Below, in pieces: positions 19,347-49,037 of a DNA stretch of 64,000 bases (within the stretch, counting starts at the first letter, position 1; the number at the start of each line of letters is the position of its first letter). The stretch comes from Arthrobacter sp. YN (lineage in GTDB: Bacteria > Actinomycetota > Actinomycetes > Actinomycetales > Micrococcaceae), in assembly GCF_002224285.1 (NCBI RefSeq), contig NZ_CP022436.1, forward strand, positions 1,612,001-1,676,000. Direction: 5' to 3'. The notes under the pieces are model-generated. The model saw only the letters and a list, made by a program, of their open reading frames with translations. It ran no database searches and was not told the origin of the DNA. Made by a program: the position numbers and the translations under genes.

Positions 19347-22300
19347 ATGGCTCTGTCTGATGGGTCCGGAAAACGTCGTGCCAATAACCGCCGGCGTAAG
19401 GTCATCGCAGCCACTGCCTTCACTGCGGCAGCGGCCGTCCTGGTAACAGGTGCCATCCTCTATCCGGGGTTCAAGACCACCGAGGTGGAACTGAACGACG
19501 GCGGCGTCTGGGTGGTCAGTAAGACCAAGAATGCGGCCGGTCGCCTGAATTACCCCTCCAAATCGCTGGATGGGGCAGTGACTCCGGCCAGCACCAACTT
19601 CGATATCCTTCAGCAGGCCGGCGACATCTTCATCGATGACGCAGATGGCGGGACCATCAACCCTGTCAGCGCCGCCAACATGCGCCTGGGCGGCGACCAA
19701 AAACTTCCAGGCTCCGCAGAGGTCAGCTTCGGCAACAAAGTACTGGCTGTCACTGACCCGTCCCAGGGCAAGGTCTGGGCTGTTTCTCCCACCTCCATTG
19801 GCGGTTTCAGCGACGAGTCGGAACCCTTGTTCGAGCAGTCGCCCGGCGTTGTCTCGGTGGTGGGCGTTGACGACACCATCCACACACTGGACCCGAAAAC
19901 CGGGACACTGACGGCAACAAAGGTGGACGCCGAGGGTAAGTCCGTAGACTCACAGGCCAGGAAGGACGAGGCCTTAAAGGCCGACGGCGAGGTCCAGTTG
20001 ACAACCGTCGGCGACAAAGCAGTGGTGCTTAACGCAGCCACCGGCGACATCGTGCTGCCCGGGGGCAACAAAGTACACCTGGAGGACGCCAGGGAAGCCA
20101 AATTGCAGCAGAGCGGCCCGGCCGCCGATTTTATCGCCATCGCCACCCCGAAGGCACTGCTCCTGCAACCCCTGGACGGCGGGACCGCCAAGACGGTCCA
20201 AGCGGACGGCCAGGGCATTCCGGCTGCCCCAGTCCATCTAGGGTCCTGCACGTACGCAGCGTGGTCCGGTGCCAACAAATACGTCCGGGAATGCACCAAC
20301 GAGGCAGATAACAAGCGGTCCGACGTTCCCAAGGCGAGTGCGTCGCCGTCGTACGTTTTCCGGGTCAACCGTGATCTTGTGGTGCTGAACGACGTCAACT
20401 CAGGCAACGTCTGGATGGTCAACCAGAACATGCAGTTGGTCAACAACTGGGACGACGTCATCCCGCCCCAGCAGACCTCGGACGACGCCGACAAGGACTC
20501 CGCGGACGAAGTCCAGCAGACAGTCCTTCCGGACCGCAGCAAACCCAACACCGTGCCGGTGGCTAAACCCGATGCCTTCGGAGTCAGGGCCGGAAAGACC
20601 ACTGTCCTGCCCGTGCTGGACAACGACGCCGATGCCGACGGCGACGTCCTCACGGTCAGCACCAGCGAGCCACTGAAGTCCGGCGCCTTGTCCGCCGTCT
20701 ACGGTGGCACCGGCTTCCAGATCGCAGTCCCCGCCGGAACCACGGGCTCCGAAACGTTCAAGTACTCGGTGGACGACGGCCGTGGCGGTACAGGCGGCGC
20801 GGACGTCGACCTGCGGGTTGTGCCCGCGGAGGAAAACAACGCCCCCCAGCCCAAACCCAACCGGAACAATGCCTTGGTGGTCCAGTCCGGGAAGATCGCC
20901 AGCCAGTTTGTCCTCACCGATTGGCTGGACCCCGACGGCGATGACATCTTTGCCGTCGCCGTCTCCAGCAGCGATCCAGCGGACCAGGTCCGGATCAGGC
21001 CGGACGGCTTGCTCACCTTCCAGGACGCAGGGGCTGGCCCGGGCCGTAAAACCCTGACCGTCAGTGTCTCGGACGGGTCCCTGACGACCCAAGGGCAGAT
21101 CAGCGTTGACGTCCGTGCTCCCGGTGCGCTGCCGCCCATCGCGAATGCGGATCACGTGGTTGCGGTGGGGGGCCAGGACACGGTGATCGCGCCGCTCAAG
21201 AATGACACCGACCCCCAGGGCGGGACGCTAAGACTTGCGCAGGCACAGCCGGACGCGCAGTCGACCGCCGTGGTGGGTCCGGACCAGCAGACGTTTACTT
21301 TCAACTCGACGTCGGTAGGTCCCCACTATGTGACGTACATGGTGACCAACGGACCGGCGAGTGCCCAGCAACTGGTGCGGGTGGACGTCGTGTCCGGAAA
21401 CAGCGACGGCGCACCGGTGGCGGTCCGCGATATTGCCCTCCTGCCCAGTGGCGGCAGCACCGTGGTTGACGTGTTGGGCAACGACTCAGACCCCAGTGGG
21501 GGCGTCCTGGTGGTCCAGTCGGTCACGGCGGCCGACGGGCTCCCGGTATCGGTCGCGGTCCTTGACCACTCGGTCATCAAGATCACCGACGTCCGGGCCC
21601 AGGGGCAGCTCTCGTTGAAATACACCATCTCCAACGGCAAAGCGTCGGCCACAGGGGACATTTCCGTCCAGGTTGTGCCGGCGCCGACCAAACTTCAGGC
21701 GCCGCAGGCCAAGCCGGACGAGGTATCCGTGCGTGCCGGCGACATAGTGACCATCCCGGTCCTGGACAACGACACGGACCCCAACGGCGGAGAGCTCACA
21801 CTGGACCCCGTCCTGGCACAGCAGCCCGACGAGGCCGCGGGCAGGATCTTTGTTGCGGGGAACACCCTCCGGTATATCGCTGGCGAGGAACCCACCACCG
21901 TTTATGCCATCTACAAGGTCAGCAATGCCTCCGGCCAAACTGACTCGCAGCAAGTCACCATCCGCATCCGCGCCCGCGATGACGCCACCAACACCAGGCC
22001 CGAGCCACGGAATCTGACAGCCCGCGTGGTTGCGGGGATGACGGTAAGAATCCCTGTTCCCCTGGACGGTATCGATGCCGATGGCGACTCGGTGCAGCTG
22101 ATGGGCATCGATAAGGCTCCCGAACTGGGGACAGCCATCCTGCGGGATGGGTACCTCGAGTTCACCGCCGGAGGCACGTCTGCAGGCACTGACACGTTCA
22201 GCTACCGCGTACGGGACCGTATCGGTGCGGAGAACACCGGCACGGTGATCGTGGGCATTGCGCCTGCGGAAGCCGATAACCAGAAGCCCATTGCGGTGGA

Positions 22301-25607: not shown

Positions 25608-25638
25608 ATTCCGCCGCCGTATGGGGGTACTGCGGAAT
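25608..25638. promoter_or_regulatory. Leader hairpin upstream of the second FN3 gene
   Basis: ATTCCGC (25608-25614) and GCGGAAT (25632-25638) form a perfect seven-base inverted repeat in the 250-base gap between the two giant genes. A possible -10 (TAGTCT, 25590-25595) lies just upstream, so the hairpin would be in the 5' leader. It suggests the second gene can be transcribed on its own. Confidence 0.35.
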
Positions 25639-25713
25639 GCACGGCTGCCGGCATGTGTCGGTTGGCCCGGAAGTCGCTGGGGGGCGGCTGAACATCAAAG
25701 GAATTTTGGGGCT

Positions 25714-28700
25714 GTGAGAAATTTCTTCGGCAAGCTGGGGCTGACAAGGCGTCAAAACAAGAAGTTCATAGCGGGAACTGCTGCCACCGCGGCGGGCGCG
25801 TTGTTGATCACCGGGGCTGTACTTTACCCGGGCTTCAAGACCACTGAGGTGGACTTGAACGACGGCGGCGTGTGGGTTGTGAGCAAAACCAAGAACGCCG
25901 TGGGGCGGTTGAACTACCCGTCGCGCGTTCTTGATGGGGCCGTGACTCCGGCAACCACTACTTTCGACGTTCTGCAGCACGACGGCAATGTTTTTGTCGA
26001 CGACGAATCCGGTTCCACCATCAACCAGGTCTCTGCCGCGAACCTGAAGCTCGGCGGCGACAAGCAACTGCCGTCGTCGTCCCAAGTCAGTTATGGGTCC
26101 ACCGTCCTTTCGGTGACCGATCCCGCCCGTGGCAAGGTGTGGGCGCTGTCCCCCTCCACGGTCAACGGCTTCGATGAAGAAGGTACCGAGCCTGTCCTGA
26201 CTGGGGACCAAGGCATGGTCTCCGCAGTAGGCGCCGATAACCGCATCTACACAGCGGATCCGGGCAAGGGCGAGATCACCGTTACCACTGTGGACGCCAA
26301 TGGCGAGCGGACAGACTCCCAGGTCTCCAAGGTGGATGATCTCAAAGGGGCCGGCGACCTTCAGATCGCCGTCGTCGGGGACAAGCCTGTAGTCCTCGAT
26401 GCCGGCTCCGGAAACCTGTTCCTCCCAGGCGGCCGCAAACTCCAGCTGCAGGACGCCCGTGAAGCCAAGCTGCAGCAAAGTGGCGAGGACAGCAGCTTTG
26501 TTGCCATCGCCACCCGCAAAGCCCTCCTGAAGCAGCCCTTGGACGGATCCACCGCTGCAACACTCAATGCCGACGGCGAAGGCGTCCCCGCAGCACCCGT
26601 GCAGGTGAGCAAGTGCGTTCACGCTGCCTGGTCCGGGGCCAACAAGTATGTCCGCGACTGCGAGAACGATGCCGATGACAAGAAGAATGACGTCCCCAAG
26701 GCCAGTGCCTCGCCCAGTTATGTCTTCCGCGTCAACCGCGACCTCGTAGTCCTCAACGACGTGAACTCGGGAAGCGTGTGGCTGGTCAACCAGAACATGC
26801 AGCTCGTCAACAACTGGGACGATGTTGTCCCGCCCAAGAACCAGTCCGATGACCAGGACCAGGAGTCCGCGGACAACAACACCATCAACGTCCTCCCGGA
26901 CCGCACCAAGCCCAACCGTGCGCCTGAAACCAAACCGGACGAGTTCGGTGTCCGGCCGGGCCGGACCTCCATCCTCAGCATCCTGGACAGTGACTCAGAC
27001 CCCGACGGCGATGTCCTCACCGCTGCGGTAGGTGCCAACGGGCCCAAATCCGGGGCGCTGGAGAACATCTACGGTGGCTCAGCGTTCCAGATCAAGGTCC
27101 CCGCTGACGCCAAGCCGGGAACGGAAACCTTCGACTACAACGCCTCGGACGGACGCGGTTTGTCCGCCGGTGGACAGGTCACGCTGCGCGTCGTGGCTCC
27201 GGAGGAAAACAAGCCTCCCTTCTTCAAACGCGGCGAGCCCACCACCATGCTGGTGGAGCAGGGCAAGTCCGTCAGCCAGAACATCCTGACCGACTGGATG
27301 GATCCCGACGGCGACGACCTCGTCCTCCTGGACGCCAAGACGGACAACGACCAGGACCAGGTCAAGGTCCGTCGCGACGGCCTGCTCACGTACCAGGACT
27401 CTGGTGCAGCACCGGGCAAGAAAAACGTCACCATCACGGTGTGGGACGGCCGTGCCACCACGACGGGCCGGATCGTTGTCAACGTTCAGCCCCCGGGCGC
27501 CTTGGCGCCGGTGGTCAACGCCGACCACGTCACGGCCGTGGTTGGCCAGGACCTGGTCATTGCGCCCCTCAAGAACGACGTCGATCCCAATGGCGGTGCC
27601 CTGCGGGTAGCGCACGTCGAGGCTGCCGGACCGGCAGAGCTGGGTCCAGTGACCGACGGCGGTACGTTCACCTTCCGGAGCACCACACCGGGCCCGATCT
27701 ACTTGACGTACATCGCCAGCAACGGGCCCCAAAGCAGCCAAGGCCTCATCCGGGTTGACGTGGAATCCGGCAAGGACGCTGGAGCGCCCGTTGCGGTTCA
27801 CGACGTCGCACTGCTCCCTGTGGGCGGCAGCGTGCTGGTGGATCCATTGGCCAACGACTCCGATCCTTCCGGCGGCGTGCTGGTCCTCCAGTCCGTCACC
27901 GTCCCCGACGGCTCGTCCGCTTCGGTCAGCGTGATCGACCACAGCGTCCTGCGCGTTACCGACGTGCTCGGCGCGAAAGAGCCGTTCGTGTTCAGCTACA
28001 CCATGTCCAACGGCCGCGGCTCGGCCACAGGCACCGTTGGCGTCGTCCCGGTGCCGGCCCCCGCCGTCGTCGAGGCCCCCCAGCCGAAACCCGACGAAGT
28101 CAACGTCCGCGTCAACGACGTCGTGACCATTCCGGTCCTGGACAACGACACACACCCGCAGGGTGAAGAACTGTCCGTCGATCCTGTCTTGGCGCAGAGC
28201 ATCCCTGAAGAAGACGGCAAAGCGTTCATTTCCGAAAAGACCCTGCGCTTCATCGCAGGCCCCACTCCCAAGACCGTGCGTGCCATCTACAACGCGGTGG
28301 ACCCGCAGGGACAGAAGAGCGCCGCGGCCGTGACCATCCACATCCTGCCGCTGGAAGGTGCGCAGAACTCCCGTCCGCAGCCGCAGAACCTGACCGCGCG
28401 CGTGGTGGCCGGTGGCAGCGTCCGGATCCCGGTGCCGCTGGACGGCATCGACCCCGACGGCGACTCGGTCCAGTTGACCGGCATCGACAGCACGCCCACC
28501 ATGGGAACCGCGACGGCGGGCAGCAGCTTCATCGATTTCGTCGCCGCTGGTGATGGCGCGGGAACCGACACGTTCCGCTACAAGGTGATTGACCGCCAAG
28601 GTGCGGTCAACACCGGAACGGTGACTGTCGGCGTCGCGCCTCGCGGTGAAGACAACCAGAAGCCTGCCCCGGTGGACGACGAAGTGCAGGTCCGTCCTGG

Positions 28701-31700
28701 GCGTCAGATCGCCGTGGATGCCACCGCCAACGACACCGATCCCGACGGCGACATCATCCGCATCCTGACGGACAGCATCGAAGCCGACGCTGGCCTCGAA
28801 GCCCAGGTCAGCAAGACCAGCGGCCGCGTTCTCGTCACTGCTCCGGCCGCCGAGGGTACGGTCAACGTCCGTTACTCCGTGGCTGACGACAGGGACGCCG
28901 TGGGCCAGGCCAGCATCAGGGTGAACGTCAAGAACGACATTCCGCTGCAAGCTCCCATCGCCCGCGATGACCGCGTCACGTCAGCCCAGACGCTGGGCAA
29001 GACAGCCGTGGACGTTCCGGTCCTCAAGAACGACGAGGATCCGGACGGCGTGGGGGAGAACCTCAAGGTCACCACTGGCTTGGAGACGGCCCGTCCGGGT
29101 TCTGAAGGCAACGTGGTGGTGGACCTCACCGAGCAGCCGCAGCTGGTGCCTTACACCGTTGAGGATGTAGACGGCCAGAAATCTACAGCCATCATCTGGG
29201 TTCCGGGCATCGGCCAGCAGGTTCCGACGCTCGCCAAGGATGAAGTGGTGGAACTGGTTTCAGGCCAGTCCGTCACTGTGAACCTGGCCGAATGGGTCAA
29301 GGTGCGCGAAGGAAAGTCGCCGCGGCTCACCCAGGCGGACCGCATCAAACTCATCGGTGCCGACGGCAGCGACCCCGTAGCGGGCAATGGAACGGCCCTG
29401 AAGTACACGGCCGGCGCTGAATACGTTGGTCCCGGCTCCATCAGCTTCGAAGTCACTGACGGAAGCGGTCCCGACGATCCCAACGGCTTGAAGTCGACCC
29501 TGAGCATCCGCACCAAGGTGCTGCCGGATCCGAACAAGAACAACCCGCCGGTGCTGCTGGGCAGCGACGTGGACGTACCCAAGGGTGACTCGGCAAGCCT
29601 GGACCTGGAGAAGCTCGCGTCCGATCCCGATTCCGACGACGTTCAGAACATGAAGTACGAGTTGGCCGGTGCAGCACCGGGTGGATTCAAGGTGAGCATC
29701 GACGGCAAGACCCTGAAGGTCTCCGCCGAAGACTCGGTGCAGATCGGCCAGGGCGGCACGGTCCAGGTGAAAGCCAAGGACCCACGGGGTCTCGAAGCGA
29801 TCGCGACGTACAAACTGTCATTGACGGCTTCCAACCGACCCAAACCGGTGGCCAACGACGACCTTGAACCGGATGCGGAATCGGGGAAGTCCGTGACGGT
29901 CAATGCGTTGGCGAACGACTCCAACCCGTTCCCGGATACGCCGCTGAAGATCATCTCTGCGGTCACTGAGACGGGCGAAGGCACGGCGGAGGTCAGCGGC
30001 GGAAACGTGACCGTCACGCCGTCGTCGGGCTTCACCGGGACCATGGTTGTTGCCTACGTAGTGGGCGACAAGACGGGTGAAACTTCCCGTTATGCCACGG
30101 CCCGCATCCGACTCACAGTCAAGGACAAGCCGGCCGCGCCCACCACGCCTCTGGCTCAAAGCGTGGGCGACCAGACAGCGTTGCTGACATGGAACGCGCC
30201 GGCTGATCGTGGCTCACCGATCACCAAGTACACGGTGTACGGGGAGAACGGCTTTAAGCAGGACTGCCCCGCGAATACGTGTACGTTGACCGGGCTGACC
30301 AACAACGTGAAGTACCACTTTGCCGTCACCGCTACCAATGCGATCAATGAATCCGAGCGTTCTCCGGTATCTGCCGAGGTCCGTCCGGATGTCAAGCCTG
30401 ATACCCCGGTTGCTCCCACACTGAAGTTTGGTGACAAGCAACTGTCCGTTGCCTGGGTTCCCCCGGCGAGCAAGGGCTCGCCCATCAAGTCCTACGACCT
30501 TGAGATCTCGCCGGCTCCGGCCGGCCAGAACCCGCAGATTCAAAACCTCACCGGCAACAGCCACGTCTGGAGCGGGCTAACGAACGGCGTGGCCTACAAG
30601 GTCCGCGTCCTGGCCCGGAACGACGCCAAGGAACCGTCCGAGTGGAGCCCCTACTCTGCGGCGGAAACTCCCGCTGGTGTGCCGGCGACGCCTGCTGCGC
30701 CTTCAGTGTCCGGCGCTGGGTCTGTTGGCGACCAAAGCCAACTCCAGGTCAGCTGGGCTGCGCCGAACAACAACGGCGACGCAGTGTCCGCTTATACGTT
30801 GACCACGTACCGGGGCGGGGCCGTCGTGGCCACCCAGTCGGTCGGGGCGACCTCGCAAAACGTCACGGTTGCCAACAGTGAAGCTGACTACACCTTTACT
30901 GTCTCGGCAACGAACAAGGCCGGCGTCAGCGGTGTCAGCCAGCAGTCAGCGGCTATCCGCGCGGCAGGAAAGCCAGGCATCGTAGCTGCGCCCACGGCAG
31001 CACTGCTGGAAACCAACGCGGCCGGTGGCAAGATCCGCGTGGCCTTCAACCCACTGTCACAGAAGGAACGCAACGGGGCCAACGCCAACGAGATCAGCTA
31101 CCGGTATGCCCTGACGTCCGGCGCCAGCAGCGGAGCGATCCCCGCCGGCGGTGGCGTTATCGCGGCACCGAACGGCCAGGACACGGCTGTGGTGGTGTGG
31201 GCAGTATCCTCACGAAACCCCACACCTGGCGACAGGAGTGCCGCATCAAACACCGTGAACCCCTATGGGCTTGCGGCGGCGCCGACTGTTACCGGCAGCA
31301 AGAGCAGCGGCGTCGGCGACAAGACGGTGTCCTGGACATGGAACCAGCCCAGCGGGAACGGCAGGCCGGTCACCGGCTACCAGTACAGCTTTGAAGGCGG
31401 CGGCTGGACAGACACAACGCAGAGAAGTTTCTCTACGACCGTGGGCTTCAGCGAAACAAAAACGTTGAGAGTCCGCGCCATCAGCGGTGGCCAGGCCGGC
31501 AACATCGGAAGCGACACGTCCCGGAGCGGATCTGCGCCACCGCCGCCGGACCCGCCGGCATCAGAGATACAGGTGGAAGCCAGCACTGTCCGGACCTGCC
31601 CGGGTAAGCCCGGGCAAACGGACAGCTACACGCCCGGCAGTCCCGCGAAATGTGGTGTGGGCTGGGTAGAACGCTCCTGGGGCAAGATCACCATCAACTG

Positions 31701-36817: not shown

Positions 36818-37094
36818 TGAGGCCGAACTTTGCCCGGCCTGCAGGCATGCGGTCCTTCCCGGGGCCACGTTCTGCACGCAGTGCGGATCCCCGTTGAGCA
36901 ACCGTGGAGCCCGCAAGGAAGGGAACATCAACCACGCCCAAAGGGCGGCTTTGGAGTTCGCAACCCGGCACGGCCTGCCCGATCCCGGTAGTATCTCGGT
37001 AGTGTCGGCACCGGCGTCGCCGACGCACCCGGCGCCTCCGGGAACCACCACGGCGCCGGACCGTATCACTGGGCCAGGGGAGGGACCACCATGA
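36810..37094 (+). CDS. Zinc-ribbon protein
   Basis: 94 residues. The N-terminal 30 residues contain a four-cysteine zinc ribbon, CPAC...CTQCG; the rest is a hydrophilic Pro/Thr-rich tail with no known domain. The start ATG 36810 lies inside the end of the previous gene (8-base overlap) and the stop overlaps the next ATG (ATGA 37091-37094). It is probably a small adaptor in the FHA/kinase cluster; its role is unknown. Confidence 0.75.
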   Translation: MNNEAELCPACRHAVLPGATFCTQCGSPLSNRGARKEGNINHAQRAALEFATRHGLPDPGSISVVSAPASPTHPAPPGTTTAPDRITGPGEGPP

Positions 37095-38395: not shown

Positions 38396-39318
38396 ATTCA
38401 CAGCCGGCCACCCCTGCCAATGCCGAAGCCGGCGCTCCTTCAGGCGGGTCTTCCTTTGGCCTGAGTTACGGGTACGGGACGGACCGCGGACTGCGCCGTG
38501 AACTGAACGAGGATTCGTTCATCGCTGCAGACCCCGTCTTTGCGGTAGCAGACGGCATGGGCGGACACGAGGCCGGTGAAATTGCCAGCGGCATGTGTGT
38601 CCGGGCCCTGGGCAGTGCCCCCGAACTTGCTGCTGGCGTGCGGACCGCATCTGCAGCGGATTTGCAGGCCTGCCTGTTGAGGGCCGACGCAGCCATCCGC
38701 AACGCCACGGGTGCCCGCGCCGGAACCACGCTGTCCGGCGTGGTGGTGGTGGAACAGATGGGCCTGCCCTATTGGCTGGTGATGAACATCGGAGATTCCA
38801 GGACGTACCGCCTCAGCCAAGGGGAGTTCACGCAGGTGAGCGTGGACCACTCCGAGGTGCAGGAACTGGTGGATTCCGGGGATATCACCGCGGAGCAGGC
38901 AACGGTTCATCCCCGCCGCCACGTAGTGACCCGTGCCTTGGGCACCGGTGATGAGACCGAGGCCGATTTCTGGTTGCTTCCCGTCCAGGAAGGTGACCGG
39001 ATCATGGTCTGCTCCGACGGCCTCAATGGTGAATTGGGCGATGACCACATGTTCCGCATCCTCAGCACCGTCGCCCATCCGCAGGATGCCGTGGACGCGC
39101 TGATTCAGGCCGCCCTGCGAAGCGGTGGCCGGGACAACGTCACCGTGATCGTGGTGGACGCCAAGAACGTCTTGAACGACGCCGGCATCGCCACCACTGC
39201 GCCCCGCCCTGAGGTTGACTCCGAGGTTGAAGAGGACACCCTTCCGAGGGCCTGGGTGAATGGCGCGGACGAGGTATCCGCGGCTGACCAGGAGGAAGGC
39301 GTCGATGGCAAGCAGTAA
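38392..39318 (+). CDS. PP2C-type Ser/Thr protein phosphatase
   Basis: 308 residues, soluble. PPM/PP2C metal-binding and signature motifs: NEDSF (39-43), VADGMGGHEAGE (52-63), GDSRTYR, CSDGLNGELGD and GGRDNVTVIVVD. It removes phosphate from Ser/Thr, opposing the kinase encoded three kilobases downstream, and would reset binding of the FHA proteins beside it. There is no transmembrane helix, unlike the usual PstP. Coupled to the upstream gene through an ATGA overlap. Confidence 0.93.
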   Translation: MNSQPATPANAEAGAPSGGSSFGLSYGYGTDRGLRRELNEDSFIAADPVFAVADGMGGHEAGEIASGMCVRALGSAPELAAGVRTASAADLQACLLRADAAIRNATGARAGTTLSGVVVVEQMGLPYWLVMNIGDSRTYRLSQGEFTQVSVDHSEVQELVDSGDITAEQATVHPRRHVVTRALGTGDETEADFWLLPVQEGDRIMVCSDGLNGELGDDHMFRILSTVAHPQDAVDALIQAALRSGGRDNVTVIVVDAKNVLNDAGIATTAPRPEVDSEVEEDTLPRAWVNGADEVSAADQEEGVDGKQ

Positions 39319-41431
39319 CCTTTCGCTGACCCGCTACCAGCACGGCGACTGGTTCGGTGTTGTGCGGAACGGGACAGTGGTTCTCCTGGGCCCGGATACA
39401 CCGCACGCGCTGATCGACACGGTCTGGGAGTTGCTGGCATCCGCTCCCGAGGCCCACGAGGTCCTTCACGAGGTGACGGATGCCTTTGGTGTTTCGCTGA
39501 GCCGCATCCCTCCGTTCGGGATCATCGACGCCAAGGACGCGCTCCGGGTATTCCTCCGTGGTGATCTCGAATTGCTGGTCCAGTCGGAATCGGGCGCCGA
39601 ACAGCTCACCGGCCGTGACGTGACCACCTGGACAGAGCGCAGGCTCGCGGGCGCAACTTCCTACAGCCTCCGGATTGGGGGCGGTTCCGCCTCCGGCATG
39701 CCGTTGAACAGCCTGCCCCTGACGGAGGGCGTGGTGCTGTTGTCAGTACTCGAAGCTGCCCCCGTCCAACCCGGCCAACCCATCCAACCCGGCCAACCCG
39801 GCCAACCCATCCAACCCGGCCGCGATGTGGGGCCCGCGATCCATGCAGCAGCCGTTCCTCTGGAGGAGCCGGCCAACGACAGAAAAAACCGGCATGCCGT
39901 CACGGACAAGGTGTCCGACGAAACCATGATCGGCTACACGGAGGCAGACCTTGGCCTGACCATCGCCCCGGGCCACCTGGGGCTGGGGACGGAATCAGCT
40001 CCCGGCGATGAACCTGCCAGTGAACCTGTGGCTGTTGGACGCGCCGGAGAACCTGCTTCCAGACAAGAGCCATCGGCCAGCGAAACCGATACTGGTGAAA
40101 CCTCCGTTGGTGAAACCTCTACTGAGGAACCCGCCGCCGCGCCTTCCGCTGACGGTCCCACCGCCGAGCCCGCCGTCGGCCTGTCCTCGGAGGATGGAGC
40201 TGCTTCACTGGCACTTGCTTCGGCGGGGGAGACCGGTCAAGAACCAGTAGCTCAGGATTCAGTCCCGGAAAATTCAAGCGTGCAGAATCCGACCGTGACC
40301 GACGTCCTCGAAGAGTCCGGTGAACCCCTCCACACCAGCACCACTGATCCCTTGGTCCCCACGTTGGAAAACACGACCAACTACGATCACCTGTGGGATA
40401 AGACGGTGATGCGCACCATCGAAGATGCTGCCGTTCGGGTGGATGACGACTCCGACGACCACGATGCCCCAGTGTCCAAGACGCCGGCCGCTCTGGTGGC
40501 CCCTGCGCCCATGCCTGCAGCACCAGCTGCAGAACCGCAGGATCCGCTATCCTCAGTCCCGGCACCACCGGCCCCAGTATCGGCAGGGCAGCGTTCGGCA
40601 GGGCAACGTTCGGCAGGGCAACCTGCGGCTGTGCAACTCCCTTCCGACCAGGGAACGGGTCTGATTGATTCCGTACCCTGGATGCGGACCAGCCCTGCCG
40701 CACCGGATGCAGGCAGTGCCGCACCCGCGCCTTCGAGCATGCCCGCTGTTCCGCTCATCGGGTCAGCGCCGTCGCCAGGCCCGGCCCCGTCACAGCCCAG
40801 TGCGGACCCTGCCCCGCAGCTTCCGGGCGGCTGGCCACCTGCACCGCCCGCAGGCGTCGTCGACGAAGATTCAGACCATGACGGCCAGACCATCATGAAG
40901 AGCAGCCTTGCTGCGGGGAACGACGACGCGGCCAAACCGGCGTCGGAAGCCCCGGAAGCTGCGGTTGCCAATGGGCCAAGCGTGTTGGCACGGGTGTGCT
41001 CCCAGGGGCACGCGAATCCACCCACGTATCCGCAGTGCTCTGTCTGCGGCACGGCACTGTCCGGCGATGCCGAGCAGGTCCAACGTCCGCGTCTTGGCCG
41101 CATGCGCCTTTCCACGGGCGAGCTGATCGATCTTGACCAGTCGCTGATCATTGGACGGCAACCTTCCGTTTCCCGTGTCCAAGGCGGCACCATGCCAAGG
41201 TTGGTGCAAGTGGAGAGTCCCGGAGGGGACATCTCCCGCTCCCACGTCGAGGTCAGGCTGGAGGGTTGGCACGTCATGTTGTGCGACCTGAAGGCGACCA
41301 ACGGAACAGTGTTGATCAGGGAAGGCCAGGCCCCCCGCCGCCTTGCCCAAAACGAAATGGCCATTCTGCTGGACGGCGATATCGCCGAGTTGGGTGACGA
41401 CATTTCATTGCGTTTCGAGGAGATTCTTTGA
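39305..41431 (+). CDS. FHA domain protein with N-terminal conserved region, zinc finger and repeat-rich linker
   Basis: 708 residues. The N-terminal ~150 residues form a conserved globular region (GDWFGVVRNGTVVLLGPDTP). A very long acidic, Pro/Ala/Glu-rich linker has short tandem repeats (QPGQPIQPGQPGQPIQPG near 39766-39823; SAGQR near 40582-40620). Near residue 560 is a zinc-ribbon-like C-H-C-C cluster (VCSQGH...QCSVCG), then a C-terminal FHA domain (IIGRQPSV, DISRSHVEVRL, KATNGTVLI). ATG 39305 follows GGAGGAAGG and overlaps the PP2C gene by 14 bases. Probable substrate or reader of the neighbouring kinase. Confidence 0.85.
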   Translation: MASSNLSLTRYQHGDWFGVVRNGTVVLLGPDTPHALIDTVWELLASAPEAHEVLHEVTDAFGVSLSRIPPFGIIDAKDALRVFLRGDLELLVQSESGAEQLTGRDVTTWTERRLAGATSYSLRIGGGSASGMPLNSLPLTEGVVLLSVLEAAPVQPGQPIQPGQPGQPIQPGRDVGPAIHAAAVPLEEPANDRKNRHAVTDKVSDETMIGYTEADLGLTIAPGHLGLGTESAPGDEPASEPVAVGRAGEPASRQEPSASETDTGETSVGETSTEEPAAAPSADGPTAEPAVGLSSEDGAASLALASAGETGQEPVAQDSVPENSSVQNPTVTDVLEESGEPLHTSTTDPLVPTLENTTNYDHLWDKTVMRTIEDAAVRVDDDSDDHDAPVSKTPAALVAPAPMPAAPAAEPQDPLSSVPAPPAPVSAGQRSAGQRSAGQPAAVQLPSDQGTGLIDSVPWMRTSPAAPDAGSAAPAPSSMPAVPLIGSAPSPGPAPSQPSADPAPQLPGGWPPAPPAGVVDEDSDHDGQTIMKSSLAAGNDDAAKPASEAPEAAVANGPSVLARVCSQGHANPPTYPQCSVCGTALSGDAEQVQRPRLGRMRLSTGELIDLDQSLIIGRQPSVSRVQGGTMPRLVQVESPGGDISRSHVEVRLEGWHVMLCDLKATNGTVLIREGQAPRRLAQNEMAILLDGDIAELGDDISLRFEEIL

Positions 41432-43131
41432 GTTCCAAGAGGCCCCCCGCGCCGCCTCCACCCATTCCGGGATTCCAATACGTCAGCCTGTTGGGCTCTG
41501 GTGGATTCTCGGATGTTTACCTGTATGAGCAAGACCGGCCCCGTCGTAAAGTGGCCGTCAAAGTGCTGCTGTCAGACCTGAAGACCGAGGGCGCACGCCG
41601 ACGCTTCGAGTCCGAGGCGAACCTGATGGCCCAGTTGTCGTCGCACCCGTACATCGTGACGATCTTCGAAGCCGAGATTACGGAGAGCGGCCACTCCTAC
41701 CTCGCCATGGAGTACTGCTCCCGGCCAAGCCTTGATGTCCGGTACCGCCGTCAGCGCTTCAGCGTGGACGAGGTCCTGGCCGTCGGCATCCAGGTGGCGT
41801 CCGCCGTCGAGACCGCCCACCGGGCCGGCATTGTCCACCGGGACATCAAACCGGCCAACATCCTGGTCACCGACTACAACCGTCCCGCACTGACGGACTT
41901 TGGTATCTCCGGCACCATCGGCGCCGACACCGAGGACGACGCCGGCATGTCCATTCCGTGGTCGCCGCCCGAGCAGTTCAGGGGTGGCGCGGTGGACGGG
42001 GTTCCCGTTGACATCTGGGCGTTGGGCGCCACCCTCTACACCCTCCTGGCAGGCCGTTCGCCCTTCGTCCTGCCCGGGCAGGACAACTCGCAGCGCGAGC
42101 TGATCTCGCGCATCACCAACTCGCCCCTTCCCAGGCTTGGCCGGGCGGATGTTCCGGAGTCCCTGGAACTCGTCCTGGCCACGGCCATGGCGAAGTCGCC
42201 GGGGTCCCGCTACTCGTCAGCGCATGCTTTTGCCCTGGCGCTTCAGCGGATCCAGACAGAGCTGAACCTGTCCCAGACACCGTTCGAGGTGCTTGAAGAA
42301 CCCGGGCACGGCGACGACCAACATCCGGACGACAACTTCGAGGAAACCCGGGTCCGGAGCATTGCTTCGATCGATCCGGACGCTTCCGGGACAGCCACCA
42401 CGGGATCGGCGCCCACGTTCCCCGCCCGGACCTTCCCGTCCACGGTTCCCGGCGCCACCCAAGCTCCTGCACACCTTTCCCCGCCGCAAACGCAACCGGG
42501 CGCCGCCCAGCAAGCCCCACCGCAATTCCACGCCCCCGTCCGGGACCAGAGCGTGGTGGAGGGGCCCGACGTCGCTGAATCCACGGTCCTGCGAGGCTGG
42601 CAAGCTTCGCCGGCTGCGCCGGATGTTGACGCAACCGTCAGCCGCTCTGCTGCCTCGGCAGAGGCACCGACAACGGAGGACGATGTCCCGGCAGCCGACC
42701 ACAGCAAGCGCAACCTATGGCTCGCCGCCACCGGCGCAGCAGTGCTGGTGGTCGCCGTCGTGGTTGGCATGGTCCTGGGTTCGTCGGCACAACCGAAAGT
42801 GGCCCCGACGGAAACTGCGAGCAAGGCCCCGGCCGATCCCTTGGACAGTGGCAGCGTCCCTGACGTCGAGGCACTGGCCGCGGCACGGGATACCAAGGAT
42901 CCGAACATCATCGTTTTTTCCTGGAAGAACCCGCAGCCTAAAGAGGGCGATACCTACAAGTGGCGCACCAAATCGGCTAAGGCTGACGGCGCCTATGAGA
43001 CAACGCCGACGGAGAAGGCCTTCGTTTCAGGCTTTGGCGAACCGCCCATTTGCGTGCAGGTCATCATTGTCCGGTCGGACGGCAGCGCGTCGCCTGAGGG
43101 GCCGGGCTCCATCGCTTGCCTGGACGGGTAG
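41428..43131 (+). CDS. Transmembrane Ser/Thr protein kinase
   Basis: 567 residues. Complete Hanks-type kinase domain: glycine loop GSGGFSDV (23-30), VAVK with K45, catalytic loop HRDIKPANIL (137-146; D139, K141, N144), DFGIS (157-161). The APE region reads SPPEQF. A Pro-rich juxtamembrane stretch (about 290-425) leads to one transmembrane helix (430-451) and a ~115-residue external domain, not PASTA. The start is TTG 41428 with GAGGAG upstream, overlapping the previous stop (TTGA). Likely the controlling kinase of the cluster. Confidence 0.93.
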   Translation: MSSKRPPAPPPPIPGFQYVSLLGSGGFSDVYLYEQDRPRRKVAVKVLLSDLKTEGARRRFESEANLMAQLSSHPYIVTIFEAEITESGHSYLAMEYCSRPSLDVRYRRQRFSVDEVLAVGIQVASAVETAHRAGIVHRDIKPANILVTDYNRPALTDFGISGTIGADTEDDAGMSIPWSPPEQFRGGAVDGVPVDIWALGATLYTLLAGRSPFVLPGQDNSQRELISRITNSPLPRLGRADVPESLELVLATAMAKSPGSRYSSAHAFALALQRIQTELNLSQTPFEVLEEPGHGDDQHPDDNFEETRVRSIASIDPDASGTATTGSAPTFPARTFPSTVPGATQAPAHLSPPQTQPGAAQQAPPQFHAPVRDQSVVEGPDVAESTVLRGWQASPAAPDVDATVSRSAASAEAPTTEDDVPAADHSKRNLWLAATGAAVLVVAVVVGMVLGSSAQPKVAPTETASKAPADPLDSGSVPDVEALAAARDTKDPNIIVFSWKNPQPKEGDTYKWRTKSAKADGAYETTPTEKAFVSGFGEPPICVQVIIVRSDGSASPEGPGSIACLDG

Positions 43132-43176: not shown

Positions 43177-43880
43177 ATGGGGGATCTAGCAATAGATTTC
43201 TGTGGGGAATGGTACGAACCATCCGACGAAGACGTCTTTGACATTGGTCGCGAAGGTGACCTGGAGGTCGACGACAACCCGTATCTGCACCGACGCTTCC
43301 TGCAGATCGCCCGTTACGACGGCATGTGGTGGCTCAGCAACGTGGGCAGCATGTTGTCTGCCACCATCGCGGATGGTTCGGGCGGCATGCAGGCCTGGCT
43401 TGCGCCGGGTGCGAGGATCCCGTTGGTCTTCAGCCACACCAACGTGATCTTCACGGCCGGGCCCACGACGTATGAATTCGCCGTCCACTTGAAGACGCCG
43501 TCGTTCCGGCACGAGGCCCGCGAAGAGGACCAAGCGGGGATACCACCATTGGCCCCGTGGTCTTCACGGACTCACAGAAGGCCCTGATCGTCGCCTTGGC
43601 TGAACCCATGCTGCGACGCGAAGGCACTGGCTTCAGCGCCATTCCGTCCTCAGCGGAAGCTGCGAAGCGGCTGGGTTGGGCCCTGACACGGTTCAACCGG
43701 AAGCTCGACAACGTGTGCGACAAACTGGACCGCGTTGGAGTGGTTGGTTTGCGCGGTGGTGCAGGGAAACTCGCCACCAACCGCCGCGCCCGCCTGGTGG
43801 AGCACGCAGTGACCTCGCATCTGGTGACCCCGTCCGACCTGCACCTCCTTGAAAAAATGACTGGAGTCGACGAAGGATGA
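43177..43880 (+). CDS. FHA-like plus HTH-like protein, split by a one-base frameshift
   Basis: Two frames join into one ~234-residue soluble protein. The first (ATG 43177, RBS GAGGAGG-like) reads an FHA-type fold with DIGREGDLEVDDNPYLHRRFLQI and DGMWWLSNVGS. The second reads IGPVVFTDSQKALIVALAEPMLRR and then a helix-turn-helix-like section (AAKRLGWALTRFNRKLDNVCDKL). Adding one G to the four-G run at 43536-43539 gives QAGDTTIGPVVFTDSQ with no break. As split frames, the first would end in a low-quality tail (WSSRTHRRP) and the second would have no ribosome-binding site. The final TGA overlaps the ATPase start. Probably a base-calling error. Confidence 0.72.
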
Positions 43881-46800
43881 AGTTTCGCCTGACCTTGCGG
43901 CGCGATCCTGCGGAAGCCAAGGACCTCGCCGTGACGGTGGATGGTCGCGCCACCGTTGCTGACATTGCCACGGAACTCTGGGCCGCCGACCCCGTACGCA
44001 AGGGGACCGAACCGCCGTCGAACCTGTCCATCAGCGTTGACGAAGCGTTTGTTGGCGGTGGCCTGTCCGGACACGTCCTGCGGCCCACGGACAACCTGTT
44101 GGAGTCCGGGTTGCGGCCCGGTTCCAAGGTCTCGCTCGCGCAGGTCAGCGAACAGTTTGCCTCGAACGGCCACGCCAACGGCACCAACAGGGGACCGGCA
44201 GCGGCGACGTTGCGCGTCATGTCAGGGCCCGACGTCGGACGCGAATTTTCGCTGCCTTTCGGCACCAGCTACATCGGCCGGGACAGGGACGCCGACATCA
44301 GGCTCTCCGACCCGCTGACGTCCAAGCGACATGCCCGCGTCACGGTGGGCGAGACCGTGGAGATCGTGGATACGAACTCTGCCAACGGGCTGCTCATGGA
44401 CGGGTTGCCCGTCACGCGGGCAACGCTGCAATCCTCGGACACGGTCACTTTGGGCGATACCACTGTGGGAGTGGTGGCGTTGTCCCGGAACCACAGTGGC
44501 GGCCCGTCGTCGCCGTTGGTGGACTTCAACCGGTCACCGCGGGTCCTGCCGAGGTTCGAATCGCCCAAACGAGTGCCGCCGGCGGGTCCCAAGCGCCCCG
44601 AGCACCAGCCGTTCCCCTACATCATGCTGGTGGCGCCGCTGCTGATGGGCGGCGTGCTCTTCGCCGTCACCCAGAACCTGCTCTCCGTGCTTTTCATGGC
44701 CATGATGCCGCTGTTCATCGTGGGGCACTACGTGGACCACAAGATGCAGAGCAAGCGCCAGGCCAAGGAAGGCCACAAGCAGTTCAAGGCCGCCATGCTG
44801 GCATTCCGTGAGGACATCGACCGGCAGCAGAACATCGAGCGCGCCGTCAGGCTCCAGGAAGCGCCCTCCGTCAGCGATACCGTGGATGCGATCTACAAAC
44901 TTGGCCCCTTGCTGTGGACCAACCGTCCCGAACACCAGCACTTCCTGGGAGTCCGTTTCGGGCTGGGCTCCGCGCCGTCGCGCATCCCCTTCGACGAGCC
45001 AAGCGCCAACGAAACCGAACCGCAGTACATGCGGGAAATCCAGGAGTGCCTTCAGCAGGTCCGGGTGATCGAGGGCGTGCCCATTGTTTCCCAACTGCGG
45101 ACCTCCGGATCGTTCGGCGTGGCGGGGGACCGCGGCGTGGTGGACGATGTTGCCCGCGGGATGGTGCTCCAACTGGTCGGTCTCCACTCGCCGGCAGAAG
45201 TGGTCCTGACGTCGCTGACCTCGGCACGTTCCCGTGAGCGCTGGGACTGGCTGCAGTGGCTTCCGCACGTCGGTTCCGGCCACAGCCCGCTGTCCGGTGA
45301 CCACCTCGCCGCAGGCCCTGGTGCTGGTGCTGCCCTGTTGTCCCGCTTGGAAAGCCTCGTGGAAGAGCGCGAGTCCATGGCCAAGGAACCGGGTCCGCAG
45401 CATCGCCCCGGGCTCAAGAACGAGCACGAAGAAATCCCAGCCCCCGTTGTGCCCGCAGTTCTGGTGATCGTTGAAGACGATGCTCCCGTGGACCGCGGAC
45501 GCCTCACGCGCCTGGTGGAGCGCGGCCCTGACCACGGCGTGCACATCATGTGGGTAGCGGCCAACGTACAATCCCTCCCCGCAGCGTGCCGCGACTTCCT
45601 TTCCGTCGACGGCGATCACGGCACCACCACAGGCCAGGTCCGCCTAGGCCGCCACACCTATCCGGTGAGCTGCGAAAGCCTCGATGCGGACCTCGCCACG
45701 CAACTGGCCCGCATGATGTCGCCGCTGGTGGACGTCGGAAACCCGCTCGACGACGACTCCGACCTCCCGCGCGCCGTTTCCTACGCCACGTTGATCGGCA
45801 AGGAGTTGATGGACAACCCGCAGGCTGTGGCCGAGCGGTGGCAGGAAAACAACTCGGTCCACGCCTCGTCTGTGCCCAACCGTAAGGACAGCGGCAGCCT
45901 CCGGGCTTTGGTTGGTTCCAAGGGCGTGGAACCGTTCTACCTCGACCTGAAGAACGAGGGACCCCACGCGCTGGTGGGCGGAACCACCGGTGCCGGCAAG
46001 TCCGAATTCCTCCAATCCTGGGTGATGGGCATGGCCGCGGCCTACAGCCCGGACCGTGTCAGCTTCCTGTTCGTGGACTACAAGGGCGGCGCAGCATTCG
46101 CGGATTGCCTCCACCTGCCCCACACCGTGGGACTGGTGACGGACTTGTCCCCGCACTTGGTCCGCCGTGCACTGACCTCCCTGCGCGCCGAACTGCACTA
46201 TCGGGAACGGCTCCTGAACCGAAAGAAGGCCAAGGACCTGCTGGCGTTGCAACGCGAAGCCGATCCAGAGGCCCCGCCGTATCTGATCATCATCGTGGAC
46301 GAATTTGCGGCGCTGGCTACGGAAGTTCCCGAGTTCGTTGACGGCGTGGTGGACGTTGCTGCCCGTGGCCGTTCGCTGGGTCTGCACCTGATCCTTGCCA
46401 CCCAACGGCCTGCCGGCGTCATCAAGGACAACCTGCGTGCCAACACCAACCTCCGTGTCGCTTTGCGCATGGCTGATGAAGTGGATGCGGTGGACATTCT
46501 TGGTGTTCCCACCGCCGCCTATTTCGATCCCTCCATCCCGGGCCGTGGCGCCGCGAAGACCGGCCCCGGGCGGATCCAGGGTTTCCAGACCGGATATGCC
46601 GGTGGCTGGACTACCGAGAAACCGCAGCGTCCGCGGATCGACATCGTGGAGATGGCCTTCGGCTCCGGGCCCACCTGGGAGCCGCCGTTGGTGGCCCAGG
46701 TGGAGGAAGAACCCGCGGGGCCGAATGACATCGCCCGGATGACGGAAAACATCATCCGTGCCGCGGACGTCCTCTCGATCGAGCCTCCCCGCAAGCCGTG

Positions 46801-48331
46801 GCTCAACGAACTGGCCACCACGTACGACTTCTCCAAGCTCCCGAATCCGCGGACGGATGAGCGGCTCCTGTTGGGCGTCGCGGACGATCCCGCCCACCAG
46901 GACCAGCCCACCGTGTTCTACGAACCGGACAAGGACGGCAACATGGCCGTCTACGGCACGGGTGGATCCGGAAAGTCGGCAGCGTTGCGCAGTATCGCCA
47001 TCGCCGCGGCCGTCACACCCCGCGGTGGCCCTGTACATATTTATGGCATCGACTGCGGTTCCTCCGGCCTGAAGATGCTGGACGGACTCCCGCACGTGGG
47101 TGAAATCATCAATGGCGACGACGTTGAACGCGTTGGCCGCCTGCTGCGCTGGCTCAAGGAAGTAGCCGACGACCGCGCTGCACGGTTCGCCGAAGTCAGG
47201 GCCTCCACGATCGTGGAGTACCGGCAGTTGGCCAACCGGCCGGACGAGAAGCGCCTCTTCATCCTGGTCGATGGCATGTCCTCCTTCCGGGAAGGATACG
47301 AGTACAGCAAGCTGTCCGCGCTGTGGGACATCTTCCTGACACTGGCCACCGACGGACGTCCCCTGGGCATCCACCTGGTAGTCAGCGGTGACCGCACCAA
47401 CTCTGTTCCGGCGTCGCTCCTTGCTTCCATCCAGAAACGGCTGGTCCTGCGCCTCAGCTCCGAAGACGACTACATGACCCTGGACGTTCCCAAGGACGTC
47501 CTCAACGCCGCCTCTCCTCCCGGGCGTGGGTTGCTGGACGGACTCGAAGTCCAGCTCGCCGTGCTGGGTGGCAACTCGAACCTGGCACTGCAAGCGCGCG
47601 AAGTGGCCAAGCTCAGCCAGGCCATGGTCCGTCAAGGACTCGAGCAGGCACCGCAAATCCAGCGCCTCCCGGAGTTGGTGGACCTGGACATCCTGCCCAC
47701 CGGTGCTCCGGACAACCCCGTTATTGGTGTCGACGACGAGACACTGGGTTCGGCGGCCATCGCCGCCAAGGGCTCGCTCCTCCTCGCGGGCCCTCCGGGT
47801 GCCGGACGGACGGTGGCGCTGGTGACCCTGGCGTACGCCATGCGCCGCTCCAACCCGCGCACAGACCTGATCTACATTGGCTCGCGCCGGTCCGCCGTGG
47901 CGTCGCTGAACATCTGGAGCCGTTCGCTGGTGGGCCCGGACGAGGTTTCCGATGTCGTGGATGACCTGATCGACAAAGCCTCGGACAACCCGGGCAGCAT
48001 GGCCATTTTCATCGAGGGCCTGACCGAGTTCACGGACACACTGGCCGAATCGGGGGTCGGCCGCCTGGTCACAGCGGCCATCAAGGCCGATCAATGGGTG
48101 GTGGGCGAGTCTGAAACCTCCACCTGGTCCCAGGCCTGGTCCTTGGCGCAGCCGTTCAAGTCCGGGCGCCGTGGGCTGTTGCTCAACCCGGGAGACGTGG
48201 AAGGCGACAGCCTCCTCAACACCTCCTTGGGCAGGATCAGCACCGACTTCATTCCCGGCCGTGGATACATTGTTGGACGTGGCAAGGTACGCAAACTGCA
48301 GATCGCCATGCCCCCGGAGAACCGAAGCTAG
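43877..48331 (+). CDS. EssC/EccC-like FtsK/SpoIIIE secretion ATPase with ubiquitin-like and FHA domains
   Basis: 1,484 residues. Residues 1-80 form a ubiquitin-like (EsaB/YukD-type) fold, 115-195 an FHA domain (YIGRDRDADIRL, SKRHARV, DTNSANGLL), then two transmembrane helices (about 245-288) and three FtsK-type ATPase modules. Module 1 is complete (Walker A GGTTGAGKSE near 700, Walker B LIIIVDEFAAL near 803). Module 2 has GTGGSGKSAAL near 1026 and a weak Walker B (FILVDGMSS). Module 3 is degenerate, with Arg in place of the Walker Lys (GPPGAGRTVAL near 1303). This is the motor of type VII secretion. FHA at the N-terminus is typical of Firmicutes EssC and unusual for actinobacterial EccC. No EccB/D/E, EssA/B or mycosin gene is seen in the window. 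Confidence 0.9.
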   Translation: MKFRLTLRRDPAEAKDLAVTVDGRATVADIATELWAADPVRKGTEPPSNLSISVDEAFVGGGLSGHVLRPTDNLLESGLRPGSKVSLAQVSEQFASNGHANGTNRGPAAATLRVMSGPDVGREFSLPFGTSYIGRDRDADIRLSDPLTSKRHARVTVGETVEIVDTNSANGLLMDGLPVTRATLQSSDTVTLGDTTVGVVALSRNHSGGPSSPLVDFNRSPRVLPRFESPKRVPPAGPKRPEHQPFPYIMLVAPLLMGGVLFAVTQNLLSVLFMAMMPLFIVGHYVDHKMQSKRQAKEGHKQFKAAMLAFREDIDRQQNIERAVRLQEAPSVSDTVDAIYKLGPLLWTNRPEHQHFLGVRFGLGSAPSRIPFDEPSANETEPQYMREIQECLQQVRVIEGVPIVSQLRTSGSFGVAGDRGVVDDVARGMVLQLVGLHSPAEVVLTSLTSARSRERWDWLQWLPHVGSGHSPLSGDHLAAGPGAGAALLSRLESLVEERESMAKEPGPQHRPGLKNEHEEIPAPVVPAVLVIVEDDAPVDRGRLTRLVERGPDHGVHIMWVAANVQSLPAACRDFLSVDGDHGTTTGQVRLGRHTYPVSCESLDADLATQLARMMSPLVDVGNPLDDDSDLPRAVSYATLIGKELMDNPQAVAERWQENNSVHASSVPNRKDSGSLRALVGSKGVEPFYLDLKNEGPHALVGGTTGAGKSEFLQSWVMGMAAAYSPDRVSFLFVDYKGGAAFADCLHLPHTVGLVTDLSPHLVRRALTSLRAELHYRERLLNRKKAKDLLALQREADPEAPPYLIIIVDEFAALATEVPEFVDGVVDVAARGRSLGLHLILATQRPAGVIKDNLRANTNLRVALRMADEVDAVDILGVPTAAYFDPSIPGRGAAKTGPGRIQGFQTGYAGGWTTEKPQRPRIDIVEMAFGSGPTWEPPLVAQVEEEPAGPNDIARMTENIIRAADVLSIEPPRKPWLNELATTYDFSKLPNPRTDERLLLGVADDPAHQDQPTVFYEPDKDGNMAVYGTGGSGKSAALRSIAIAAAVTPRGGPVHIYGIDCGSSGLKMLDGLPHVGEIINGDDVERVGRLLRWLKEVADDRAARFAEVRASTIVEYRQLANRPDEKRLFILVDGMSSFREGYEYSKLSALWDIFLTLATDGRPLGIHLVVSGDRTNSVPASLLASIQKRLVLRLSSEDDYMTLDVPKDVLNAASPPGRGLLDGLEVQLAVLGGNSNLALQAREVAKLSQAMVRQGLEQAPQIQRLPELVDLDILPTGAPDNPVIGVDDETLGSAAIAAKGSLLLAGPPGAGRTVALVTLAYAMRRSNPRTDLIYIGSRRSAVASLNIWSRSLVGPDEVSDVVDDLIDKASDNPGSMAIFIEGLTEFTDTLAESGVGRLVTAAIKADQWVVGESETSTWSQAWSLAQPFKSGRRGLLLNPGDVEGDSLLNTSLGRISTDFIPGRGYIVGRGKVRKLQIAMPPENRS

Positions 48332-48428
48332 GATTTGCCGCAGCGCGGGCGATGTAAGAGGATTTCACAAAACACCCGAACTTCTTGAAAACCGGCGGCG
48401 CCCCAACGCCCCGGCTGAGGTTACTTTC

Positions 48429-49037
48429 ATGCGACACTCCGTTGTCCCTGCCGTTCTTCTAACCGCTGGCCTGATGTTGGCGCCCGCTGCCGCCGTCCAC
48501 GCTGCTCCGTGCGACGGGAAGCTCTCCTGCGCCCCCACCGAGGGAGCCGACGACCCGTCGCCGACTCAGCCCGCGCTGGCTCCTGAAGCGGACAAGAAAC
48601 CCACGTCCAAGCCGGAACCGACCCGTATCCGCGAGACACAGAAAGCTCCGGCACCTGCACCGGCCGCTCCCGCACCGCCTGTCCAGGCGCCGCGTCCCGT
48701 CGTCACGCAGTTCGTTACCGTGGCACCCCGGGTGACCAGTCCGGCGTCGGGCCCGTCCGAACCCACGCCCACCCCCGAGGCGACCGTGGCGTCAGCAACG
48801 CCGTCGGTCTCTCCCTCCGCGACTCCCAGCTCAGCCGGCCCCAGCCCGTCCAAGTCGTCCAACTGGAACACCCCCGTGGACAAGGGCAAGGAGACGCAGG
48901 CCGCCGCCATGGCCAGTACGTCCATCTCCGGCCCCAACATGCTGGGCCTCTTCGGTATCCTGGGTGCCGTTCTCCTGGTGGGCCTGGGCGGCCTGGCGTT
49001 CGCGCTGTGGAGCAAGAACCGGCTCTCTTCGCACTAG
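48429..49037 (+). CDS. Secreted Pro/Ala/Thr-rich type I membrane protein
   Basis: 202 residues. N-terminal signal peptide (VVPAVLLTAGLMLAPAAAVHA, cut after AHA/VHA), two cysteines soon after it (APCDGKLSCAP), a long Pro/Ser/Thr/Ala-rich spacer and a C-terminal transmembrane helix (LGLFGILGAVLLVGLGGLAFALW) with a short basic tail (SKNRLSSH). There is no LPxTG motif, so it is held by the helix and not by sortase. It lies 97 bases after the secretion ATPase gene and could be an accessory envelope component of that machine. The family is not recognised. Confidence 0.7.
   Translation: MRHSVVPAVLLTAGLMLAPAAAVHAAPCDGKLSCAPTEGADDPSPTQPALAPEADKKPTSKPEPTRIRETQKAPAPAPAAPAPPVQAPRPVVTQFVTVAPRVTSPASGPSEPTPTPEATVASATPSVSPSATPSSAGPSPSKSSNWNTPVDKGKETQAAAMASTSISGPNMLGLFGILGAVLLVGLGGLAFALWSKNRLSSH

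Follow-up and report, generated by a model that had tools for sequence, protein, structure and literature searches.

The window analysed here, a 64,000-nucleotide stretch of Arthrobacter sp. YN (contig NZ_CP022436.1, positions 1,612,001 to 1,676,000; genome G000 in our sample), carries on its + strand, at 19332-49037, a gene cluster that joins a PFNA gene set to a type VII secretion system (T7SS) motor in one row. We interpret this cluster, with moderate confidence, as encoding a kinase-switched variant of type VII secretion. The interpretation draws on the class and domain structure of the motor, on a threonine motif concentrated in the linker of the adjacent Ser/Thr kinase, and on the company that related motors keep in other genomes.

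Motor architecture and a threonine motif in the kinase

Judged by its sequence, the motor is an EccC/EssC-type membrane motor of type VII secretion. Its best curated match is the NCBIfam EssC model TIGR03928 (531 bits, below the cut-off of 778), which bears out the EssC-like assignment made in a preliminary description of the window; it also scores below cut-off against TIGR03924 (342 bits), and its solved relatives among PDB matches include YukB and EccC5. The first ATPase unit has both Walker A and Walker B motifs, the second has a Walker A motif, and in the third the Walker A motif is altered. The FHA domain of the motor appears to be an intact reader, as the preliminary description supposed, with G134, R135, S149, H152 and N170 invariant in 23 of 23 rows.

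Residues 1-91, ahead of this FHA domain, are predicted to form a ubiquitin-like domain of the YukD type, which the preliminary description had missed. The 50 best Foldseek hits of a two-domain model were all FHA matches, and the first domain was therefore folded by itself. Profile-profile comparison of the N termini of motors of the window's type with 18 of 28 N termini of other types, namely those whose start looked right, is positive. With a leave-out ubiquitin-like profile, only 10 of 30 valid test rows exceed the best of 620 shuffles (L215 is uncounted, being among the training rows), and there is no match in the T7SSd-like motor of G082, a genome discussed below, or in the second motor of the window genome. 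The predicted novelty is that the ubiquitin-like part is built into the motor, whereas other secretion systems of the class make it separately.

Because FHA domains read phosphothreonine and not phosphoserine, a motif confined to threonine makes a good candidate FHA ligand when it occurs in the kinase of an operon rich in FHA domains. Across 51 kinase linkers, [DE]xTxxR occurs 63 times, against 6.1 (standard deviation 2.6) in 200 shuffles, an approximately tenfold enrichment, and it is present in 34 of these linkers. The serine version occurs twice (5.4 in shuffles) and the motif with any other central residue 73 times (68.7 in shuffles). The kinases come from fetched loci; a few are perhaps not PFNA kinases, and the proteins are related, so that there are fewer independent events than linkers. 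The DUF58 protein, the motor and the giant surface proteins of the row show no [DE]xTxxR excess over shuffles, and the transglutaminase has 28 motifs against 23.6.

Linkage of the motor with PFNA and WXG100 genes

We surveyed 149 genomes drawn from the window's order. Motors were scored as window-type at 41% identity or more, mostly over their full length; the next tier of long matches lies at 26-37%. Among the loci scored with a family model, window-type motors reach at least 1262 and other motors at most 959. The motors of G140 and G030 are cut by contig ends, those of G130 and G116 match from residues 108 and 205 on, respectively, and G125 was excluded from the count for its broken-up match (66% identity across residues 676-903 and, in a different frame, 41% across 877-1327).

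Window-type motors are present in 41 of the 149 genomes: 28 have them with PFNA genes, 10 have them apart, and 3 are not assessable (G139, G132 and G097, where contig ends prevent full judgement; kinase and FHA genes adjoin the motor in G097, and G132 has two FHA matches). The arrangement that the preliminary description had named as refuting its proposal, with the ATPase apart from the FN3/MoxR genes in most relatives, is thus not what is found. Linkage was called from tblastn maps; in G085, G024, G146, G104, G046 and G076 the call is by FN3 coordinates, which lie within 13-25 kb of the motor on its own contig and strand, and in G118, G126, G039, G062 and G140 it rests on PFNA genes other than FN3. 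The N-domain of the giant immunoglobulin (Ig)/FN3 surface proteins occurs in 73 of the 149 genomes, comprising 36 of the 41 motor genomes and 37 of the 108 others (Fisher p 2.9e-9, uncorrected for kinship), and the motor therefore leans on PFNA more than PFNA leans on the motor.

The order kinase, SML (the name we give to a 136-amino-acid FHA-like protein), 107-amino-acid protein, motor is as in the window in 78 of 80 named loci, the other two being cut by the contig. These loci are the best 80 of more in GTDB and include Paenarthrobacter, Arthrobacter, Pseudarthrobacter, Sinomonas, Psychromicrobium, Cellulosimicrobium and Agreia. Two arrangements are common: one, of the window type, has the kinase directly before the motor, and the other reads kinase-SML-107aa-FN3-MoxR-DUF58-transglutaminase (TGM)-motor, as in G137, G023 and, in another class, G352, and from SML on in G066. 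G007 has FN3-MoxR-DUF58-TGM-motor. In a quick maximum-likelihood tree of 70 motors, with support from the Shimodaira-Hasegawa-like approximate likelihood ratio test (SH-aLRT) only and the root not inferred, the linked G007 motor is the earliest branch of the order's window-type rows, and four changes are required to explain the scored states.

Motors of other kinds also lie near PFNA genes. A 1051-amino-acid EccC/EssC-like protein follows FN3-MoxR-TGM-FHA in G021, another T7SS type lies ∼2.9 kb from the PFNA end in G038, and MoxR-DUF58-TGM is found near a motor of 31-32% identity in G364 and G315. In G099 (L226, G099:C11:33000-46000), a family relative without a window-type motor, the PFNA operon is ∼1.5 kb away from genuine EccC and EccD genes, each scoring above its cut-off; small genes of WXG-like size are present in this system.

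In 31 of 38 examined genomes (G140, G030 and G139 were not examinable), the 4 kb downstream of the window-type motor contain a WXG100-like gene or a longer open reading frame (ORF) that starts with such a domain, and a WXG100-like gene lies within 6 kb downstream in 21 of 70 named loci with enough downstream sequence. None is found within 4 kb downstream of the motor in G067, G137, G005, G085, G024 (where 0.9 kb is unseen) or the window, and in G116 (L050) the WXG100 gene is directly upstream of a motor with no PFNA genes nearby. Single WXG100-like proteins do not reach the Pfam cut-off of 27.3 bits, with scores of 21.5-26.8. The window genome has its WXG100 orthologue elsewhere (G000:C1:4970055), a gene also missed by the preliminary description; it scores 91.9 bits with a model built without it and is 66% identical to the motor-adjacent protein of Arthrobacter oryzae L126. 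Presence of WXG100 anywhere in a genome was rejected as evidence because 137 of the 149 genomes match PF06013 whatever their motors. WXG100 proteins appear likelier substrates than the giants, for which the preliminary description had proposed that role as one option and which each begin with a membrane anchor.

The stand-alone motor clusters L041 and L043-L047 have a cassette in common, which consists of RDD-FHA, the motor, a pair of WXG100-like genes of which one lacks the W, a ∼400-amino-acid WXG-headed protein and a ∼210-amino-acid protein.

The gene row and its neighbourhood

Every gene named in the preliminary description is present in our ORF reading, Pfam bears out the domains named save for the corrections given below, and the cluster is one-directional and tightly packed, with neighbours spaced by -154 to +157 bp (Table 1). 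A search for sigma-70-like promoters gave 0 matches in 31700-49300, a weak test given that shuffles yield 1.5.

Table 1. Features of the gene row, with window coordinates and the evidence for each (TM, transmembrane segment)
Feature	Position	Strand	Evidence and remarks
Giant Ig/FN3 surface protein A, 2043 aa	19332..25463	+	Pfam Big_9 x9, fn3 x3; N-terminal membrane anchor at residues 24-42 (hydropathy)
Giant Ig/FN3 surface protein B, 2066 aa as read	25621..31821	+	Pfam; 54% identical twin of A
MoxR AAA+ ATPase	31876..32847	+	Pfam AAA_3
DUF58 membrane protein	32922..34325	+	Pfam DUF58; hydropathy
Polytopic transglutaminase-like protein	34172..36817	+	Pfam Transglut_core; hydropathy; real start probably more internal
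Zinc-ribbon protein	36717..37094	+	Pfam Zn_Ribbon_1
RDD membrane protein with C-terminal FHA	37091..38395	+	Pfam; [DE]xTxxR at T315
PP2C phosphatase	38392..39318	+	Pfam PP2C_2
FHA protein with long low-complexity linker	39260..41431	+	Pfam FHA; [DE]xTxxR at T382
Transmembrane Ser/Thr kinase	41428..43131	+	HRD and DFG intact; one TM, 432-450; [DE]xTxxR at T307, T386, T403
SML, 136-aa FHA-like protein	43177..43587	+	Invariant GR, HR, N; neighbourhoods
Conserved 107-aa small protein	43557..43880	+	59-91% identity to 16 relatives
T7SS motor: ubiquitin-like (predicted), FHA, two TM, three FtsK-type ATPase units	43877..48331	+	Pfam, NCBIfam and PDB matches
Motor residues 1-91, predicted ubiquitin-like (YukD-type) domain	43877..44149	+	Fold prediction, profile comparison
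Motor residues 108-201, FHA domain	44198..44479	+	Pfam; phosphothreonine-reading residues invariant
Pro-rich protein with signal-like N-end and C-terminal TM	48429..49037	+	Hydropathy; accessory

The homology to PFNA noted in the preliminary description holds gene by gene. The bifidobacterial reports give the operon as pkb2, fn3, aaa-atp, duf58, tgm, prpC, hyp and fha (PMC8430577, PMC6803598); measured against that set, the window has a homologue of every core gene and keeps the FN3-MoxR-DUF58-TGM order, but its kinase comes late, after FHA, instead of first, and SML, the 107-amino-acid protein and the T7SS motor are added in the row. With window proteins as queries, tblastn located the PFNA set in small genomes assigned to family f4, which we take for bifidobacteria; the kinase-first order is found in families f4, f13 and others. 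Against the window proteins, G020 has identities of 45% for the Ser/Thr kinase, 31% for FN3, 55% for MoxR, 33% for DUF58, 27% for TGM, 33% for PP2C and 32% for FHA. The bifidobacteria-like operon of G020 (L233) is adjoined by a second kinase, a small membrane protein and a 2971-amino-acid surface protein with, by appearance, a C-terminal transmembrane segment. The texts of PMC8430577 and PMC6803598 contain none of the terms “FtsK,” “type VII” or “secretion,” and we found no paper with both “PFNA” and “type VII secretion,” and among the papers listed none on this operon, in a literature that leaves out most subscription journals.

The “two giant FN3 proteins” of the preliminary description each have three fn3 stretches, nearer the C-end, and are for the rest mostly bacterial Ig/cadherin-like, with nine Big_9 stretches apiece in Pfam. 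Hydropathy gives each a single N-terminal membrane anchor and no C-terminal transmembrane segment. Their copy number varies. The window, G085 and G041 each have a pair, many genera have a single giant, and in G005 (L072) one isolated additional copy sits at another place in the genome.

SML has no Pfam match, and its FHA-like G24 R25, H38 R39 and N55 are invariant in an alignment of 16. The 107-amino-acid protein is among the best-conserved of the set and adjoins SML wherever both were mapped; it has no Pfam or NCBIfam match, which leaves the helix-turn-helix (HTH) assignment of the preliminary description without support. The Pro-rich protein, previously counted as a member, was rejected as a core part because a similar one was detected in only 29 of the 80 named loci and because the sister genome G085, with a motor-to-ligA gap of only 46 bp, has no space for it.

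The window genome has a second, divergent T7SS-like locus (L080, G000:C1:858000-876000), made up of a kinase, a motor in two ORFs and 447- and 953-amino-acid proteins with signal-like N-ends, followed by an Rhs pair. The WXG-like/Rhs pair upstream of the row (window 1114-6249) was considered as a substrate of the window motor and rejected: it is 99.1% identical to a pair beside the second T7SS (G000:C1:874945-880076, L235), and it lies within a ∼10.7 kb stretch (about 941-11640) absent from G085. For these reasons this Rhs is probably better assigned to the second T7SS and not part of the system described here.

Relation to known secretion systems and alternative explanations

T7SSa, or ESX, comprises EccB, C, D, E and mycosin, and T7SSb comprises EssC/YukB, EssB/YukC, EsaB/YukD, EssA and EsaA. 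The statement in the preliminary description that such partner genes are missing stands for EccD and YukC/EssB: in G000 neither EccD (TIGR03920; G099 over cut-off in the same search) nor YukC/EssB (PF10140; Bacillus subtilis control positive) is matched. For EccB it stays unsupported, as the profile matched nothing in G000 or in any other genome searched. A separate YukD/EsaB (PF08817) is also unmatched in G000 at E 0.01, with a positive B. subtilis control. The window system resembles T7SSa in its EccC-like motor and in carrying a YukD-like domain as part of a larger membrane protein, but in T7SSa that protein is EccD and here it is, by prediction, the motor. It resembles T7SSb in a motor with N-terminal cytoplasmic domains including FHA, two transmembrane segments and three ATPase units; there, however, two FHA domains accompany a separate YukD, whereas the window motor has one predicted ubiquitin-like domain and one FHA domain.

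A further comparison is with T7SSd (TsdA, C, D, H and I; Olsenella and Bifidobacterium), as described by Garrett, Higginson and Palmer 2024 (PMC11217815). Shared features are an FHA-bearing EssC-type motor with conserved phosphothreonine residues, a Ser/Thr kinase, a giant Ig-like protein, WXG100 and an actinomycete host; the window kinase, with HRD, DFG and one transmembrane segment, is like TsdD. The window row adds MoxR, DUF58, transglutaminase, PP2C, RDD-FHA, SML and the 107-amino-acid protein. TsdI has a signal peptide, Ig-like domains and a C-terminal transmembrane segment; the window giants share the Ig-like domains and an N-terminal anchor and lack the C-terminal segment by hydropathy. 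The TsdA counterpart, a WXG100 protein at the locus, is absent beside the window motor and present in most relatives, and the single-pass TsdH has no closer counterpart in kind than the variable Pro-rich protein. T7SSd is reported without a ubiquitin-like protein, a stated puzzle in that paper, whereas one such domain is predicted on the window motor.

The system is T7SS-like in the general features that could be tested by sequence, and departs from tested features of T7SSa, T7SSb and T7SSd. That it is T7SSd itself, already described and carrying extra genes, is quite doubtful despite the shared outline of FHA motor, kinase, giant Ig protein and WXG100. In the motor tree, which is without Olsenella, the clade of the window motor does not include the T7SSd-like motor of G082, at 29-31% identity, G082 being assigned to T7SSd by inference only; G082 moreover carries, besides a separate PFNA operon, another locus in which the end of a membrane-anchored protein is accompanied by a motor and WXG100-like genes. 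The giants differ from TsdI at the C-end, and the text of PMC11217815 contains none of “fibronectin,” “MoxR” or “Micrococc.” We regard the window system as a T7SS variant distinct from T7SSa and T7SSb, and probably from T7SSd.

Several observations weigh against a coupled, kinase-switched system. The motor stands apart from PFNA genes in G067, G083, G054, G130, G105, G047, G119, G069, G031 and G116, and most of these stand-alone motors belong to one clade that keeps an RDD-FHA gene beside the motor. Among three window-type motors outside the order, only that of G352 is linked; the sequence examined around the G279 motor contains no PFNA gene, and near that of G242 there are FHA and PP2C genes alone, encoded on the opposite strand. 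PFNA has its own role apart from the motor, because the giant N-domain is present in the 37 motor-less genomes counted above and all 10 of those mapped hold FN3, DUF58, transglutaminase and kinase. No WXG100 gene lies beside the motor in the window, G085, G024 or G005, and the N terminus of the window motor is itself without any Pfam match. In RDD-FHA linkers the [DE]xTxxR motif is raised (12 against 3.0), yet so is the other-residue control (85 against 54.1), and in FHA-protein linkers the motif is weaker (13 against 8.0).

These points give some weight to two independent neighbours, a PFNA surface and signalling operon beside an ordinary T7SS motor, sharing transcription at most and without physical coupling. 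SML and the 107-amino-acid protein accompany PFNA even where the motor is absent, and of 20 mapped other-type motor loci all but G038 show no more of the PFNA genes than single weak FHA matches. We nevertheless consider mere neighbourhood unlikely, since the linkage recurs in differing gene orders and with other motors (G021, G038, G099, G364, G315). The stand-alone G116 motor, far from PFNA genes, has on reading by eye a ubiquitin-like domain and no visible FHA, which speaks the same way, although a single case is suggestive only. Export or assembly of the giants by the motor would account for their presence in 36 of the 41 motor genomes, but it is very improbable: the giants begin with a hydrophobic anchor typical of Sec insertion, occur in 37 motor-less genomes, and are not the usual immediate neighbours of the motor, which are WXG100-like genes.

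Considered together, the data are consistent with a model of kinase-switched secretion in which the kinase would sense the wall via its ∼115 outer residues and phosphorylate [DE]xTxxR threonines in its own juxtamembrane linker, as well as those in the RDD-FHA protein and in the FHA protein. The motor would then dock on these phosphothreonines by its FHA domain, so that the pore is assembled or opened where the kinase senses the wall, and PP2C would reset the switch. WXG100 proteins would be exported by the motor. MoxR-DUF58-transglutaminase may help to build or cross-link the Ig/FN3 giants, which may span the wall, guide WXG100 proteins through it and take the place of envelope parts of the EsaA/TsdI or Ecc type that were not found here. 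More tentatively, and below even confidence, the family may form a separate actinomycete T7SS subtype in which YukD/EsaB is built into the motor, PFNA is the envelope part, and export is switched via a [DE]xTxxR threonine code read by FHA; the bifidobacterial PFNA would be an envelope part that lost or never had its motor.

The bifidobacterial PFNA operon is now studied as a host-cytokine receptor. The proposed system would tie this much-discussed probiotic operon to protein secretion and would offer an answer to the stated puzzle of T7SSd, for which no ubiquitin-like part was found. In harmless soil bacteria it would also make phospho-switching of type VII secretion testable at low cost, with named threonines and a named reader domain.

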